Made by a program: the position numbers and the translations under genes. DNA of 64,000 nt, taken from positions 434,001-498,000 of the forward strand of contig JAMPUU010000017.1 of assembly GCA_030144965.1 (NCBI GenBank), in the 5' to 3' direction. Below the pieces are notes generated by a model. The model was not told where the DNA came from. It ran no database searches and saw only the letters and a list, made by a program, of their open reading frames with translations. The DNA comes from Nitrospira sp. BO4 (GTDB taxonomy: Bacteria > Nitrospirota > Nitrospiria > Nitrospirales > Nitrospiraceae). Positions 5,662-21,001 of the stretch are shown here, in pieces. Position 1 is the stretch's first letter. Each line of letters begins with the position of its first letter.

Positions 5662-7953
5662 TCAGCGACGATCGTCCACGACTCGATGCGACATCGGTAG
5701 TCCGTGTTCTTCGCTCTCACACACCTCATCGGCCAAGAACTCGACTCCTCCCGTGATAACGTCGTACATCGCGCCAACGATCGCGAGCCGTTTCTTACTC
5801 ATAAGACCGTCGATCGTTTCACTTCTCTCCCGCAGTTGTTCAACGACTCGCGCAACATTCCGGCTGGCAACGACATCGACGAACGCGACTGTTTCGTCGA
5901 TGGATCGCCCCGGCTCAGCTGATCCGGTCGCTTGGTCGGCCGCTTGCTGAAGATTGCTGACGATGTAATCGAAGTGCTCGCACCCGATCGCTTCGGTCGC
6001 CGTTTGCGAGGAACCGAGGAGTTTGACGGCCTCCGTGACCGCACCGCACCGTGTATGCCCCATGACAAGAATGAGTTTCGCTCCGGCTACTGCGCAGCCG
6101 TATTCCGCACTGGCAATCACCGTTCGGCTTGAAATGTTGCCGGCGATGCGGACACTGAAGATATCGCCCATACCCAAGTCAAACACTCGCTCTGCAGGCG
6201 TCGGAGAATCGATGCAGCTGAGGACAACGGCTAACGGATGCTGCGCCTCGGCCGTCGCCCGGACTTGCCGGTTGAAATCTCGCGTCAGACGCCGCCCGGT
6301 ACGGGCTCGTTCATGGCCGTCTTTTAGAATTTGCAGAACCTGGAGCGGCGTGATGGTGTCTTGGAGTTCGCGGGTTGAATAATCCACATACTGAATCTGG
6401 TCCTCAAAGTTGTACTCATTCCGAAATCCGACAAGACTGACTTCGACACCGTGAACAGGCCCCGTTTGTTCTTTGAAATCTCGGATCAAGTCCAATATGT
6501 CCGGATCGATGTAGTCGGTGCTCCGTGCGTCCAGGAGAACACGACCGTTGCGGGGCACTTCATCCAACACTTTCGACAGGGCGGCACGATTCAAGAAGCT
6601 CACCTGGTCGGCCAATTTGATGTGCACCACATCACCACCTAGATGCTTCTCCACAAAGCGGTGTACCGGCTGGCGCATATTGCTGTTCAGGATGAAGCCA
6701 ATCGCCACGACGAGTCCGATCACGATACCAATCAAGAGGTCGGTGAACACAATAGCCGCCACCGTGATCGCGAACGGAATGAATTGGTAACGGCCATCGT
6801 TCCACATTTGCTTGATCAAAGCAGGGCTGGCTAGTTTAATGCCGGTCATCAGCAAGATGGCCGCCAGACAAGATAACGGAATCGCGTTCAACCATGTGGG
6901 TATGAGGGGAACGCTGATCAACAACAACATGCCGTGAATAAGCGCGGACAGTTTTGTTTTTCCACCGCCGTTGACGTTGACGGATCCGCGGATAACCACG
7001 GACGTGACCGGGAGTCCGCCGACCAGTCCGCAAACCATATTTCCGATGCCTTGAGCCACTAGTTCCTGGCTTGGTGGCGAGGTCCGTTGCTGCGAGTCCA
7101 GTCGATCGACTGCCTGCAGATTCAGCAAGGTTTCAAGAGAGGCCACGACGGCAAGGGTAATACCCGCCGTATAGATTGCAGGATTCGCCCACTGCGAGAA
7201 GTCCGGCCGCGGAAGGAGCCCGAAGAGTTCGCCTAAGTCGTTCGCCATCGGTACTTGAACCAAATGACTCGCCTTGATGAGCCAGGGATCGCCGAGTTGC
7301 TCGAACCACCACGCCACTCCGATCCCGAAGAGGACCACCGCGACGGGTGCGGGAAAGAGCGACTTCTTCAGCGGCTTCCACTTGTCCCAAAGCACGAGCA
7401 GCGCAATGGATCCCAGCCCGATCATGGCGGAGCCCAGCTGAAAATCACCGAACATGCGGAACAGTTCAGAAAACGTCGTCTCGAGATTCGGTTGAAAGAA
7501 GGCCATTTCTCCTTCAGGGTTTGGATCATGGCCGACTAGATGCGGAATTTGCTTCAAAACAATGATCACACCGATCGCGGCCAACAACCCTTTGATCACG
7601 CTGGACGGAACGAACGCGGCGATGAATCCTCCCTTGGCCACACCCAGGACGACTTGAAGGAGCCCGGCAAGAATCACGGCCATGAGAAAAACGGAAAATG
7701 AACCGAGTGAAAGAATTTGGGCGGCGACGATTGCCGTCAAACCAGCGGCCGGTCCGCTGACGCTGGTGTGCGATCCGCTGAACATTCCCACCACGATGCC
7801 GCCGATAATCCCGGCCAACAACCCGGACACCAGCGGCGCGCCGGAAGCGAGCGCAATCCCCAGGCATAACGGCAATGCCACAAAGAACACAACGAGTCCT
7901 GCTTTAGCATCAGCTGCGAGAGCACTCAACGATATGCCGTTCATTGCGGACAT
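5662..7953 (-). CDS. SulP anion transporter fused to STAS and carbonic anhydrase-like domains
   Basis: This 763-residue fusion has three parts. Residues about 10-425 form a SulP transporter core with many membrane spans and the family phrase SGPAAGLTAIV. Residues about 435-535 form a STAS domain. Residues about 555-745 form a beta carbonic anhydrase-like domain. SulP proteins with this tail are thought to import bicarbonate. The zinc ligands C580, H633 and C636 and the aspartate D582 are present. The position normally held by the catalytic arginine (CxDxR) is proline P584, so catalysis by this domain is doubtful. The complete carbonic anhydrase gene next door could supply the activity. The ATG at 7953 gives an N terminus close to the first membrane segment. 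Confidence 0.92.
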   Translation of the reverse strand: MSAMNGISLSALAADAKAGLVVFFVALPLCLGIALASGAPLVSGLLAGIIGGIVVGMFSGSHTSVSGPAAGLTAIVAAQILSLGSFSVFLMAVILAGLLQVVLGVAKGGFIAAFVPSSVIKGLLAAIGVIIVLKQIPHLVGHDPNPEGEMAFFQPNLETTFSELFRMFGDFQLGSAMIGLGSIALLVLWDKWKPLKKSLFPAPVAVVLFGIGVAWWFEQLGDPWLIKASHLVQVPMANDLGELFGLLPRPDFSQWANPAIYTAGITLAVVASLETLLNLQAVDRLDSQQRTSPPSQELVAQGIGNMVCGLVGGLPVTSVVIRGSVNVNGGGKTKLSALIHGMLLLISVPLIPTWLNAIPLSCLAAILLMTGIKLASPALIKQMWNDGRYQFIPFAITVAAIVFTDLLIGIVIGLVVAIGFILNSNMRQPVHRFVEKHLGGDVVHIKLADQVSFLNRAALSKVLDEVPRNGRVLLDARSTDYIDPDILDLIRDFKEQTGPVHGVEVSLVGFRNEYNFEDQIQYVDYSTRELQDTITPLQVLQILKDGHERARTGRRLTRDFNRQVRATAEAQHPLAVVLSCIDSPTPAERVFDLGMGDIFSVRIAGNISSRTVIASAEYGCAVAGAKLILVMGHTRCGAVTEAVKLLGSSQTATEAIGCEHFDYIVSNLQQAADQATGSAEPGRSIDETVAFVDVVASRNVARVVEQLRERSETIDGLMSKKRLAIVGAMYDVITGGVEFLADEVCESEEHGLPMSHRVVDDRR

Positions 7954-11235: not shown

Positions 11236-12591
11236 TCAGTCAGGCTGTGTAGCCGGTGGGCAAGTTGTTTGCCTTGTGTCGCGCCCAGGTCCCTTGGTGA
11301 TTTCAATTCGGGCCACGCCTTTGACATTGGCGCAGAGATCGCCAAGCCCCGGTGTCACGAGCCGAAATGGGCCGCCCTTGGCTTCCGGTAAAGCTGCCCC
11401 ATCGAGTTCATACACCAACACCCCGTACTCCTTTGCCTGTTGTAGTGTGAGACAGGCCGAGTACTTCCCGTCCGCTGCATGAAACGCCACGTGATCTGCC
11501 CCGATGGACAAGGCCGGAATATCGAGCAGCCCGCTCAAACGGATCCCCCGACCCTTCATACCCGGCATGACCGTCGAAATATCCACGTGATGCTCAGCCG
11601 ATAATGAAGCCATCGTCGCATGATCGAAGGATAGCGGCTGCACAACAGCCCCATCGATGGTCACGATGCCGCTACCGGTCCGCTCCTTGTCGGTCATTGC
11701 CTGGATCATTGCCGTGAGGGCCTCATTCACAGGAACCGGAATGCCGAGCTTGCGCCCTTGCTCCACGATAAACCCGTTCAAATACTCAATCTCCGTCGGT
11801 CGCCCCGCTTTCCAATCGTCATACATGGAGGTATGGATGTCGCGAATTTCCTGTGATGCCTTCACGACCCGTTCGGCCATGTCCGAGGGCAGGGGCACTT
11901 TGAGCGTCGCCGCAACGGCCGCTACTTCTCCGACGATCTGCCGGATAACGCCCATCATCTCGGAATGGTCAAGCGCTTTGGCCACTCTGTCGTTCATCAG
12001 CACAGTCATGGGATTGAACACGCAATTCCAGCACATCTTCTCCCATTTGGCGCGCCGAATATCCTTCGACAATTGACAGGGAATGCCGGCTGACGCAAAG
12101 AGATCGCGGATTTTGAGAAGCCGACCGCTCTCATATCCCATCAGTTCGCCGATGGCCACCGCCCCTTTCTTATAGTGATCAATGACCCCAGGCGCAGAAA
12201 TCTTCGAATAGATATAGGCCACACCGCCGACGACGCCATCGCGATTGATTCGAGCAATGAGCCGGTCTTCGGTATCGACACCGTTCTGTAGGGTGAGAAT
12301 CACGGTGCGTTCCGTGAGCACAGGGGCAAGTTGTCCCATGACTTCATCAAGATCGTACGCTTTGACGCCGAGGATGATGAGGTCGGGACGTGGCAGCTCC
12401 CGCACATCCGCCGCCGCCGTCGGTCGGACCGTGAACGATCCGTTCGTGCTCCGAATCGTCAATCCGTTTTGGCGGACGGCTGCGAGCGTTTTTGGCCGCA
12501 GAAGGAATGCGACATCCGGATTGTTCTTGGCCAAGTGGGCTCCAAAGAACCCTCCCACGGACCCGGCTCCGACGATCAAGATCTGTTTCAT
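11236..12591 (-). CDS. Ketopantoate reductase-like enzyme with a C-terminal molybdopterin-oxidoreductase-like domain
   Basis: The protein has 451 residues, against about 300 for normal 2-dehydropantoate 2-reductase (PanE), which makes pantoate for CoA with NADPH. The first about 310 residues form a complete PanE/ApbA: the Rossmann motif GAGSVGGFFGAHLAK, the CVFNPMTVLMND region and the EIEYLNGFIV helix that carries substrate contacts. The extra C-terminal 120 residues (about 325-440) end in DGKYSACLTLQQAKE, GGPFRLVTPG and VKGVARIEI. These match the C-terminal part of sulfite oxidase-fold molybdopterin proteins. The part of that fold holding the metal-binding cysteine is missing. A GAGGA site precedes the ATG at 12591. 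Confidence 0.85.
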   Translation of the reverse strand: MKQILIVGAGSVGGFFGAHLAKNNPDVAFLLRPKTLAAVRQNGLTIRSTNGSFTVRPTAAADVRELPRPDLIILGVKAYDLDEVMGQLAPVLTERTVILTLQNGVDTEDRLIARINRDGVVGGVAYIYSKISAPGVIDHYKKGAVAIGELMGYESGRLLKIRDLFASAGIPCQLSKDIRRAKWEKMCWNCVFNPMTVLMNDRVAKALDHSEMMGVIRQIVGEVAAVAATLKVPLPSDMAERVVKASQEIRDIHTSMYDDWKAGRPTEIEYLNGFIVEQGRKLGIPVPVNEALTAMIQAMTDKERTGSGIVTIDGAVVQPLSFDHATMASLSAEHHVDISTVMPGMKGRGIRLSGLLDIPALSIGADHVAFHAADGKYSACLTLQQAKEYGVLVYELDGAALPEAKGGPFRLVTPGLGDLCANVKGVARIEITKGPGRDTRQTTCPPATQPD

Positions 12592-12689
12592 TGGCGATCC
12601 TCATTCCATTGCATATCAAGCGGGCGTACTATAGCATGCCGCTCCACAGCGACATAGTAACCTTATCCCTCCGTTTACAGATTACAGAC

Positions 12690-13424
12690 ATGTCTCGTGG
12701 ATCGAACCTCACACTCTTGAAGGAAAAGCTTTCCTCCGCCGGATCGATTACTGTGTTGACCGGCGCGGGTATTTCCGCTGATAGCGGTGTGCCGACCTTT
12801 CGCGGCACGGACGGCTTGTGGCGCAACTTTCGAGCCGAGGACCTCGCAACACCGGAAGCTTTTGAGCGTGATCCCCGACTCGTCTGGGAGTGGTACAACT
12901 GGCGACGCGAACTGATCGCCGCAAAACTGCCGAATGCGGCTCACAACGCTGTGGTTGAACTCGAGCGGCGCTGCGCGGACTTTTGGCTGATCACTCAGAA
13001 CGTGGATGGGTTGCATCGCGACGCAGGCTCACAGAAACTCACCGAGATTCATGGCAACATCTGGAAAGTTCGCTGCACTGATTGTGGCACGGTGGACAAC
13101 AACCGCGACGTGCCCATTGCCATCTTGCCTACGTGTCGGCGTTGCGGGTCGTTGCTCCGCCCACACATCGTCTGGTTCGGCGAATCCCTGCTTGCCGAGG
13201 ACATCAAGCACTGCTCTACGGTGCTCCGAAACTGCGATGTCCTGCTCGTCATTGGGACGTCGGGGGTCGTCTATCCAGCAGCGGGATTCGCATCGATCGC
13301 GAAACAGGCCGGCGCGTTCGTCGCCGAAATCAATCTCGATTCCACGCCACAATCAGCGCTGGTCGATCTGTCGCTGCAAGGCCGCGCAAAAGAGATCGTA
13401 CCGTTATTGCTCGAGCCGCTGTAA
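12690..13424 (+). CDS. NAD-dependent protein deacylase of the Sir2 family (class III, CobB-like)
   Basis: The protein has 244 residues. It shows TGAGISADSGVPTFRG (25-39), QNVDGLHRDAG (103-113), catalytic H121 in HGN, and a zinc ribbon C129-C132-C149-C152. The YNWR motif (Y69 and R72) matches the Tyr-x-x-Arg pair that lets SIRT5 and CobB remove succinyl or malonyl groups, so desuccinylation as well as deacetylation is plausible. The ATG at 12690 was chosen because it precedes the domain by about 20 residues and avoids the divergent ketopantoate reductase gene; no strong ribosome-binding site is seen. The 3' end overlaps the convergent HAD gene by about 20 bases. Confidence 0.9.
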   Translation: MSRGSNLTLLKEKLSSAGSITVLTGAGISADSGVPTFRGTDGLWRNFRAEDLATPEAFERDPRLVWEWYNWRRELIAAKLPNAAHNAVVELERRCADFWLITQNVDGLHRDAGSQKLTEIHGNIWKVRCTDCGTVDNNRDVPIAILPTCRRCGSLLRPHIVWFGESLLAEDIKHCSTVLRNCDVLLVIGTSGVVYPAAGFASIAKQAGAFVAEINLDSTPQSALVDLSLQGRAKEIVPLLLEPL

Positions 13425-14129
13425 GAGTGGAAATAATTCGTCCAGGCTCGCGATGGTCTGAACACCTGATTGCTCCTGCCTTCTTTCACGATCCAATAGG
13501 ACGGCATGAAGGCCTGCTTTTCGCGCACCCTCCACATCGTCTTTCAGACTGTCCCCGACATGCAGAGCTTCCTCGGGATCGACTGCGTGTTTCTCCAACG
13601 CGACATGAAAGATCCTAGGAGCCGGTTTTGCCGCATGAGTCAGGCTTGAGATCGTCACTGTGTCGAACGCCTCGGCAATCCCCAGTCCGCGCATCACGGC
13701 AAATAGACGCGAATCAAAATTCGAGATAATTCCGATCTCCAGATCCAGCGCTTTGAGCTTCGCCAGGGCTGAAGGTGTTTCCGGAAACAAGCACCAGGAT
13801 CGGTGATCTTCAAACGCGCGAAAGACCTGATCGAAGAACTCGTCGAAACGTTCGAACATCCCGACACGATAAAAGACGTTATGAACGACATCGAACCACC
13901 AAAGCCGTTCACTGTGCTTGATTTGCGCCGGGTCAGTGGCGGCGAATACCGGCGGTGGGGCTTCGCGGAATGCTCGGCGAAACGCCTGTGTGATCGCTGC
14001 CGGAGACTCTGCTTTCTGACGAAACCCAAATTGGACGGCATGTCGAAGATAGATCTCCGCGACAGACCCACGCACATGAAACAGTGTGTCGGCGGCATCA
14101 AAAAATACAACTCGTATCGAACGGCTCAC
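13404..14129 (-). CDS. HAD-superfamily hydrolase (HDHD3/REG-2-like)
   Basis: This 241-residue protein has nucleophile motif FFDAADT (D11), motif II in IGIISNFDSR (about 135-144), the lysine in KPAPRIF, and motif IV GDSLKDDVEGARKAG. The second aspartate of the usual DxD is alanine (A13). That is common in the HDHD3/REG-2-like branch but makes ordinary phosphatase activity uncertain. A helical cap of about 100 residues lies between motifs I and II. The substrate is unknown. The gene is divergent from the receiver-domain gene at 14272. Confidence 0.8.
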   Translation of the reverse strand: MSRSIRVVFFDAADTLFHVRGSVAEIYLRHAVQFGFRQKAESPAAITQAFRRAFREAPPPVFAATDPAQIKHSERLWWFDVVHNVFYRVGMFERFDEFFDQVFRAFEDHRSWCLFPETPSALAKLKALDLEIGIISNFDSRLFAVMRGLGIAEAFDTVTISSLTHAAKPAPRIFHVALEKHAVDPEEALHVGDSLKDDVEGARKAGLHAVLLDRERRQEQSGVQTIASLDELFPLLQRLEQ

Positions 14130-14271: not shown

Positions 14272-15423
14272 ATGCCTTCGCCGATCTTCGTTGTCGACAG
14301 CAGCCCCGCGGTCAGACGAATGGTGGAACAGATTTCTGCCCCGGAAGGGTTTGAAGTCGTTGGGTTTCAGGACGGACCGGCTGCCCTCGAAGCGGCTCGG
14401 CGAAGCAGCCCTATACTTATCATCGCCGACTACCACCTCGACAACATGACCTTTTCGGGATTCTGCAAAGAGATCAATAAGCTCGACAATCTCACCGAAA
14501 CGTTCCTTGTGTCGTTGATTAACCCGGCGGATCGTCCTGACGAAAATCATCTCCGTACCTTAGGGGTCAAGGCATTTCTCAAGAAACCTTTTCAATCCGA
14601 AGACCTGCTGGAAGTCCTCAAATCTCTTCAGCAAAAACCGGTGGGTGCCTCTAACGGCAAAGGGCTCACACGGCGGGCCTGGCCGCCGACGTCAACCTCA
14701 ACCGACATCGATGATGAGGTCGCGAGCGACAACTTGACGGGTGACGACGGGCAGGAAGAACCTGTTCTGAACGAGCGGGCCGCCTCACCGCTGGCATCAA
14801 TGGCAGCACCGGCCTCCCATGCCGGGCCGGAAGACGCGATGAAGGGTTTCTTCGATCAGCTCGTGCAATCGATGACCAAACGGAGCGAGCAGACGCTTGC
14901 CGATCTGCTGCCCAAAATGATCGACGAGAAACTCGCAACCCATGTTCGGCCTATCGTACAGAGAGAGTTGCAGGCTCAGCTCGGAAACATTCTTTCTCAG
15001 GAATACCTCACGACGATTATTCAACCTCTCGTCTCTCAGGTATTGCCCTCGCTCATTAGAAAAGAACTTGCGGCCAGCGAACCGATCATTCGGCAAGCCG
15101 TCTCCGATGTGGCCAAACCTTCCATCGGAGAAAGTGTCGATCGGCTGGTTCGAGAAGGGGTCGAGTCGGGTGTCCGTCTTCACTTGCCCGCCGCTGTGCA
15201 GGAACAGATGGGAACGATCAATCAGCTCGTCAAGGATGAGCTACGACAGGCAGTGGAGAAACAGGTCCCATTGCTGGCCGACGACTTGGTGCGAGCCGCC
15301 GCCGACCAATCTGTCGAGCGGGCCGTTCAGCGAATCGTGCCTGACGTCGCCGAGCAGCACATCAAGGCGGAACTCAAGCGTCTGATCGATACCGAAGAAC
15401 CCTCACACCCGTCTAAGCGCTAG
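14272..15423 (+). CDS. Response regulator with a long repetitive amphipathic tail
   Basis: The 383-residue protein starts with a receiver domain (about 1-120). D9 in FVVDSS and phospho-acceptor D53 in IIADYH are present, with the conserved lysine in FLKKPF. A low-complexity linker (about 125-185) leads to a C-terminal region of about 185 residues. This region is made of repeated amphipathic helices of the type IVQREL, LIRKELA, LVREGVESG, LVKDELRQAV, IVPDVAEQHIKAEL. Comparable tails occur on receiver proteins of other deep-branching and deltaproteobacterial groups; their job is not established to my knowledge. There is no DNA-binding domain, so output is probably by protein contact or membrane association. 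Confidence 0.78.
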   Translation: MPSPIFVVDSSPAVRRMVEQISAPEGFEVVGFQDGPAALEAARRSSPILIIADYHLDNMTFSGFCKEINKLDNLTETFLVSLINPADRPDENHLRTLGVKAFLKKPFQSEDLLEVLKSLQQKPVGASNGKGLTRRAWPPTSTSTDIDDEVASDNLTGDDGQEEPVLNERAASPLASMAAPASHAGPEDAMKGFFDQLVQSMTKRSEQTLADLLPKMIDEKLATHVRPIVQRELQAQLGNILSQEYLTTIIQPLVSQVLPSLIRKELAASEPIIRQAVSDVAKPSIGESVDRLVREGVESGVRLHLPAAVQEQMGTINQLVKDELRQAVEKQVPLLADDLVRAAADQSVERAVQRIVPDVAEQHIKAELKRLIDTEEPSHPSKR

Positions 15424-20178: not shown

Positions 20179-20212
20179 CGAAAGCGGCACCATGCCGAGT
20201 AGAATAGGCCCT

Positions 20213-21001
20213 ATGCTATTGGCGATCGACATCGGAAATACCAACATTGTCGGGGGGATTTTTGACGGATCGACTCTGCTGACCCATTGGCGATTGGCGA
20301 CCGACCCTAAGACCACAGCCGATGAGTACGGCGTCCTCTGCCTCAGCGTCATGGCGCGAAGCGGCCGTGTCCCCGAGCAAATCACCGGCGCCATCATTTC
20401 CAGCGTCGTACCTGCCCTCACGGAAACATTCGAATCGATGGTCGAAACATCCTTTCGCTGCACCCCGATCATTGTCTCATCCGAGATGGACACAGGCTTG
20501 ACGCTGAAGTACTTGAACCCGAAAGAGATCGGAAGCGACCGTATCGTGAACGCGGCCGCGGCCTATCATAAGTTTCGCCGTGATCTCATCATCGTTGATT
20601 TCGGCACAGCCACGACGTTTTGTGCCGTCAGTCACCTCGGCGAATATCTCGGAGGCGTAATCGCTCCGGGCCTCTCGATTTCCGCCGATGCCCTTTTCTC
20701 CCGGGCTGCAAAACTGAGCAAGGTCGAGCTCGCTCGGCCTAAGACTGTCATCGGCGTCGATACAGCCGGGAGCATTCAAGCGGGGCTCGTATTCGGTTAT
20801 GCCGGTCTCGTAGATACCCTAGTCCGGCGGATGGAAGAAGAAATGGGACGTACCTCGTATGTGATCGCCACAGGCGGATTGGCTCCGGTGATCGCTCCAG
20901 AAGCGAAGTCAATCCAACATATTGAACCCTTCCTGACCTTGAATGGGCTCGAACTTCTCTATCGCCGCGCCCGGGGCGCCAGTTTGACGCAGTGGACCTG
21001 A
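20213..21001 (+). CDS. coaX: Type III pantothenate kinase
   Basis: This 262-residue enzyme phosphorylates pantothenate, the first step of CoA synthesis. It belongs to the acetate-kinase-fold CoaX type: phosphate motif DIGNTN at the N terminus, DFGTATTF (about 128-135), GGVIAPGLSIS, and a late ATGGLAP loop. CoaX proteins normally begin right before the DIGNTN strand, so the ATG at 20213 was chosen over the one at 20192. It follows birA closely, ending the valS operon. The ketopantoate reductase-like gene at 11236 would serve the same pathway upstream. Confidence 0.93.
   Translation: MLLAIDIGNTNIVGGIFDGSTLLTHWRLATDPKTTADEYGVLCLSVMARSGRVPEQITGAIISSVVPALTETFESMVETSFRCTPIIVSSEMDTGLTLKYLNPKEIGSDRIVNAAAAYHKFRRDLIIVDFGTATTFCAVSHLGEYLGGVIAPGLSISADALFSRAAKLSKVELARPKTVIGVDTAGSIQAGLVFGYAGLVDTLVRRMEEEMGRTSYVIATGGLAPVIAPEAKSIQHIEPFLTLNGLELLYRRARGASLTQWT

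Follow-up and report, generated by a model that had tools for sequence, protein, structure and literature searches.

The closest described system to the domain analysed here is PruR, known from Agrobacterium tumefaciens (Atu3496) and from homologs of Vibrio and Klebsiella (structures 7KOS, 7KOU, 7KOM, 7KP2 and 7RKB). PruR is a secreted, separate protein of about 170 aa, encoded with dcpA or with DTB regulators. It lacks the Mo-ligating cysteine of the sulfite oxidase fold and binds tetrahydromonapterin, in its reduced state, in a truncated site; it acts through partner binding and regulates DcpA, with no evidence of a redox reaction, and sites of the PruR type have been described as offering too little room for Moco (PMC13259868). 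That sulfite-oxidase folds without this cysteine can serve as pterin receptors is a recent insight, and the cases described to date are secreted two-gene systems. The domain reported here is fused to a metabolic enzyme, is conserved across the Nitrospirales and has at least twice outlived the enzyme, which makes it a simple test case for the fold as a general intracellular small-molecule sensor.

The gene lies in a window of 64,000 nucleotides (the whole stretch of DNA analysed) from Nitrospira sp. BO4. It occupies 11236..12591 on the minus strand, with an ATG at 12591 and the stop at 11236-11238, and encodes a panE::SUOX-like fusion of 451 aa in an uninterrupted frame; the plus strand of the interval is interrupted by stops. 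All parts being on the minus strand, the protein comprises a ketopantoate reductase part (residues 1-300, 11692..12591), supported by Pfam and by alignment with PanE of E. coli K-12, a linker (residues 301-312, 11656..11691) with a mean pairwise identity of 63% versus 79% for PanE, a sulfite-oxidase-fold domain without the Mo-cysteine (residues 313-435, 11287..11655), supported by Pfam, Foldseek, VIA-align and dN/dS, and a C-terminal extension (residues 436-451, 11239..11286).

The first part had been read from the letters as a complete PanE-like reductase, and this description holds. In Pfam, ApbA is matched at residues 4-150 (E 4e-39, 134 bits against a cut-off of 22) and ApbA_C at residues 177-299 (E 4e-35, 121 bits against a cut-off of 22), and the fusion protein scores 268 bits with TIGR00745 against a cut-off of 141. 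All catalytic residues of E. coli PanE are retained in the alignment, R32, K77, N103 and K185 corresponding to R31, K72, N98 and K176, and N189, N193, S255 and E267 to N180, N184, S244 and E256; N103, N189, N193, S255 and E267 are invariant in 75/75 homologs and K185 is invariant in alignment A2. E. coli PanE and the G. metallireducens protein 3hn2 match this half over its full length with the same catalytic residues, and no PanE structure matched has a comparable C-terminal domain. By every sequence test, the reductase half of the fusion is PanE, an enzyme of vitamin B5 and coenzyme A synthesis. The PanE/ApbA family is broad, D-mandelate dehydrogenases also matching, and ketopantoate is the substrate predicted from family membership, IlvC being encoded as well. 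Ketopantoate reduction is also possible by IlvC (PMC4306246; PMC11487621), and panB and ilvC are both present in 15/15 genomes tested; because IlvC can reduce ketopantoate, PanE may be dispensable in these 15 genomes, and ketopantoate stays its putative substrate.

The tail matches Oxidored_molyb (PF00174) at residues 348-434 (E 5.5e-13; 49.3 bits, cut-off 24), over profile positions 72-163 of 169. This agrees with the molybdopterin-binding fold proposed by the sequence-only reading, whose three motifs, DGKYSACL, GGPFRLVTPG and VKGVARIEI, are all present. The tail shares with sulfite oxidase, SorA, SorT, SoxC and MsrP (YedY) the PF00174 fold and the pterin-side motifs PxRL-PG and VK, whereas it lacks their Mo-cysteine loop, the Trp of this loop and their C-terminal dimerisation domain. 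Six more Oxidored_molyb hits are found in this genome; the three that were aligned all bear the cysteine. Against these three, the deletion covers the Mo-cysteine and about 5-25 residues of the loop after it, up to the Trp of 'TW.G'; the tail keeps the first strand and helix and then shows 'DIST-VMPGM' opposite 'FHCVTSWSRYDNDW' of a relative, which locates the site of the missing loop (D337-I-S-T-V-M) at 11566..11583 on the minus strand. Within the family, the Cys column is not conserved and is occupied by T, K, A, Q and others. The earlier statement that the region bearing the metal cysteine is missing is correct and can be made more precise: since the flanking strands are present, the N-terminal third is short and not wholly missing. 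A tail entirely without the pre-cysteine region was also ruled out by separate relatives that match profile positions 10-163. The deleted cysteine and loop rule out a working Mo centre in the customary position; judged by its sequence, the tail has the Oxidored_molyb fold but is no Mo enzyme of the usual kind.

The pocket side of the fold is kept. The motifs GGPxRL and VK are retained, the pocket-side residues are invariant or nearly so in fused and separate forms alike, and the conserved motif GGPFRLVTPGLGDLCANVK (residues 406-424; 11320..11376, minus strand) includes the invariant R410, C420 and K424, while Y377 is Y or F in 75/75 homologs. Over 136 close pairs, PanE has a median dN/dS of 0.065 and the tail one of 0.077; purifying selection on the tail is almost as strict as on PanE, which indicates that the tail is used. 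The domain is not cysteine-free, since Cys420, placed before NVK in the LCANVK motif, is invariant in 75/75 fused homologs and also occurs in those separate forms that were aligned. A redox centre built on this other ligand, with NADPH or another electron path, could be imagined, as Cys420 lies in the stretch that bears the VK(W) motif in sulfite oxidases and a second Cys occurs near the C-terminus, within the last 14 aa, in 69/75 homologs. The deletion has nevertheless removed the catalytic loop with its Trp, PanE requires no second redox centre and Mo ligation from the place of Cys420 is not known to us in any member of the fold, so that we regard such a centre as very unlikely.

Structural comparison directs attention to PruR. 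With the tail as modelled by AlphaFold (pLDDT 72.6, from a shallow alignment), Foldseek retrieved YedY, SorA and the PruR entries 7kom, 7kos, 7kou, 7kp2 and 7rkb, the latter at E 4e-5 to 5e-4 with the whole target covered and TMt of 0.58-0.68. In VIA-align, the predicted model superposes on PruR over about 121 residues (Z 12.7-13.0, 2.5-2.7 A), and on Mo enzymes and sulfite oxidases with Z 8-14.5 at 3.1-4.5 A. The proposed fold is thus borne out by structure as well as by profile, and for this model the PruR proteins are the best compact whole-chain matches. The model of the whole protein reached a pLDDT of 69.9, poor in the second half of PanE and in the linker, and owing to this low confidence and the shallow alignment it yields no readable domain contacts.

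Like PruR, the tail is a small sulfite-oxidase-fold domain without the Mo-cysteine, annotated as a molybdopterin oxidoreductase. The residues that seem to correspond to PruR positions 102 and 104, the latter being the pterin-binding Tyr104, are Asp and Tyr/Phe. At the apparent place of Trp160, the other pterin-binding residue considered, the tail has G425 (Gly, Ser or Gln in the family), a correspondence deduced from structure-match ranges and the VKW motif and not from a residue-level alignment. The invariant Cys420 is an extra feature of the tail. The two further differ in that PruR is secreted and separate, whereas the tail is cytoplasmic and fused to PanE: the tail has no N-terminal secretion signal, being C-terminal to a cytoplasmic-type reductase that starts at its dinucleotide-binding motif. 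Instead of dcpA or DTB regulators, the conserved neighbours of the fusion are Sir2, HAD and receiver-domain protein genes and a valS-nadC-birA-coaX run. As it shows neither secretion nor linkage to dcpA, the tail is not filed as PruR; it is PruR-like in its mode of working at most. A rhizobial plasmid hit considered as PruR was discarded, being a 328-aa molybdopterin-dependent oxidoreductase. Small haloarchaeal relatives from plasmids (L226, L227), which had seemed to be of one class with the tail, were set aside as well, since they retain the cysteine.

The fusion could have been an artefact, two genes being joined by a frameshift, a misassembly or a misread stop. Among 395 Nitrospirota genomes, 121 have a match to the tail (E < 1e-50), and in 114 of these 121 the tail lies inside a frame of more than 400 aa; the other seven correspond to contig ends (G324 and G349, and probably G363 and G056), to a stop in the linker (G294) and to two real separate forms, both lineage-specific (G036, G030). 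In two closed genomes, N. moscoviensis (L101) and Candidatus N. defluvii (L113), the frame is open and the fusion whole. Fusions found throughout the genus are 73-82% identical, and those of sister families 53-57%. Set against this survey, the single metagenome-assembled genome with an in-frame linker stop leaves an artefactual join extremely improbable, and a frameshift or assembly join is ruled out. In that genome (Nitrospira sp. RSF5, L048:9071-10417), panE and the tail are separated either by fission or by an assembly error.

The combination had been called unusual, which is correct insofar as the data searched show it in a single bacterial order; within the Nitrospirales it is the rule. 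Beyond Nitrospirota, the data consist of a single genome-collection scan, whose 80 best loci all belong, or appear to belong, to Nitrospirota, with 66 weaker matches besides. Viral contigs contained no relative, and our literature search found no paper describing such a PanE-tail fusion. One locus titled Nitrospinota bacterium B18T1B5 (L106) carries the Nitrospirales fusion; its label looks wrong, and the contig is apparently identical with that of G391, a genome of the window's own order.

In other orders of Nitrospiria, the homologous domain is encoded by itself, as a protein of about 170-220 aa. This family of sulfite-oxidase-fold proteins without the Mo-cysteine (L147-L154, L206-L211), whose only curated name is Oxidored_molyb, is 35-41% identical to the tail and has the same CxNVK and GGPxRL motifs, but is unfused and carries a His-rich C-terminal extension, with 9-29 His in the last 60 residues, at the place of the C-terminal extension of the fusion. 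In three loci of sister orders (L147, L152, L210), a separate panE lies 2-4 kb from the separate domain gene and adjoins the same kind of HAD gene as the fusion; in several other genomes (G331, G202, G210) the domain gene is not adjacent to panE. The simplest history is that the two were first neighbouring genes and underwent one fusion in the ancestor of the Nitrospirales. Afterwards the PanE half was lost, and the tail kept, in at least two lineages, G036 and genus g7 (G030, G474, G475). The fusion is retained in the congeners of G036 (G231 and G264), and in both G036 and G231 the genes run ndk, tail, cyclase and divergent Sir2. The tail tree, rooted with cysteine-bearing proteins, has long branches and an untrusted root, and only the nesting of separate among fused forms was used; it is strong for G036 (99/97, in a clade with its congeners) and weaker for the attachment point of g7. 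The reverse case is found in G028, where PanE is kept and the tail was cut out in frame by an exact deletion at a short CGC repeat (L034:5126-6106). Several genomes lack both PanE and tail, part of genus g12 among them.

The retention of the tail after the loss of PanE in g7 and G036 indicates that it has its own job, and this weighs on two alternatives. According to the first, the tail would be a structural or dimerisation module stabilising PanE, as could be expected from a fusion constant through most of the order and from a short, fairly conserved linker. We judge it quite unlikely, because the tail persists without PanE and PanE without the tail in G028, because the most conserved tail residues form the pocket-side motif and not a general surface, and because other PanE proteins do without such a module. 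According to the second, the tail would handle molybdopterin, Moco or a metal as a carrier, store or chaperone with a cellular role of its own, the fusion tying expression or localisation without regulating PanE. The kept tails of G030, G474, G475 and G036 are compatible with it, the long His-rich ends of the sister-order relatives are metallochaperone-like, and in a genome without panE (G187, L154:7094-11628) the separate form stands in a run with a MoaD-MoaE fusion and MoaC, although an ABC transporter and a histidine phosphatase intervene. Of the loci inspected, however, just one has Moco genes nearby, all Nitrospirales forms inspected, fused or separate, lack the His-rich end, and the small PruR-type sites speak against Moco; this second alternative seems to us unlikely.

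The sequence-only reading had favoured a binding or regulatory tail over a redox centre, which remains the best reading given the deleted Mo-cysteine loop and the PruR-like fold. From the analyses together, we conclude that the tail is probably a cytoplasmic, non-redox ligand-binding domain on PanE; a part as small-molecule sensor is more likely than one as a second catalyst. To the full description, a PanE-type 2-ketoacid reductase with a PruR-like, cytoplasmic sulfite-oxidase-fold domain that binds a ligand as sensor or scaffold, we assign a probability of roughly 0.45. The analyses themselves establish the domain composition, the lost Mo-cysteine loop, the conservation and purifying selection, the evolutionary history and the independent retention of the tail. 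Ligand binding, by analogy with PruR, as well as the identity of the ligand, its effect on PanE and the domain contacts are what we infer here. The retained pterin cleft would hold a small molecule (R410, K424, D374 and Y/F377, with the family-specific C420 near), and the ligand-bound state of the tail would adjust the reductase half.

PanB (EC 2.1.2.11), which makes the substrate of PanE, consumes 5,10-methylene-tetrahydrofolate. Since the known ligands of the fold are pterins and PanB uses this cofactor, a reduced pterin or folate would be the most economical guess for the ligand and is our leading proposal; pantoate supply would then track one-carbon/pterin status. The occupation of the apparent Trp160 place by Gly, Ser or Gln counts against a pterin, and the His-rich ends of the separate forms and the one MoaC/MoaD-MoaE neighbourhood point instead to metal or molybdopterin handling. 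We therefore advance only tentatively, as a doubtful but specific proposal, that the tail is a cytoplasmic pterin/folate sensor built into PanE, through which the pterin pool feeding PanB controls a step of the CoA pathway, and that it represents a second, non-secreted PruR-like branch. If true, this would directly link one-carbon/pterin status to CoA synthesis, and the fusion may show how the nitrite-oxidising Nitrospira bacteria set their CoA supply.

The proximity of coaX, another gene of this pathway, had also been pointed out. This type III pantothenate kinase gene (20192..21001, plus strand; Pfam, E 1.7e-73) does lie 7.6 kb from the fusion gene, outside its transcription unit, and is found at 7-8 kb from the fusion in 51 of the 80 related loci; type III pantothenate kinases are not known to be inhibited by CoA. 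It belongs to a conserved valS-nadC-birA-coaX run, in which valS, nadC and birA are presumed identities read from the sequences, coaX being backed by Pfam as are the two following neighbours. A divergent Sir2 family protein (12492..13424, plus strand) is conserved in 72/80 loci and a HAD-family hydrolase (13404..14129, minus strand) in 69/80. Scans for promoters and terminators found nothing. The listed TTG start of the Sir2 gene overlaps the panE start, and the real one is probably 100-200 bases downstream of 12492. The gene at 14272-15423, conserved next to valS in 61/80 loci, encodes a response-regulator receiver and, after it, a long region weakly similar to DUF445. Elsewhere in the window, a SulP-type permease is fused to a carbonic anhydrase (5662-7953; Sulfate_transp and Pro_CA), the product of which is possibly a bicarbonate transporter with a built-in anhydrase.
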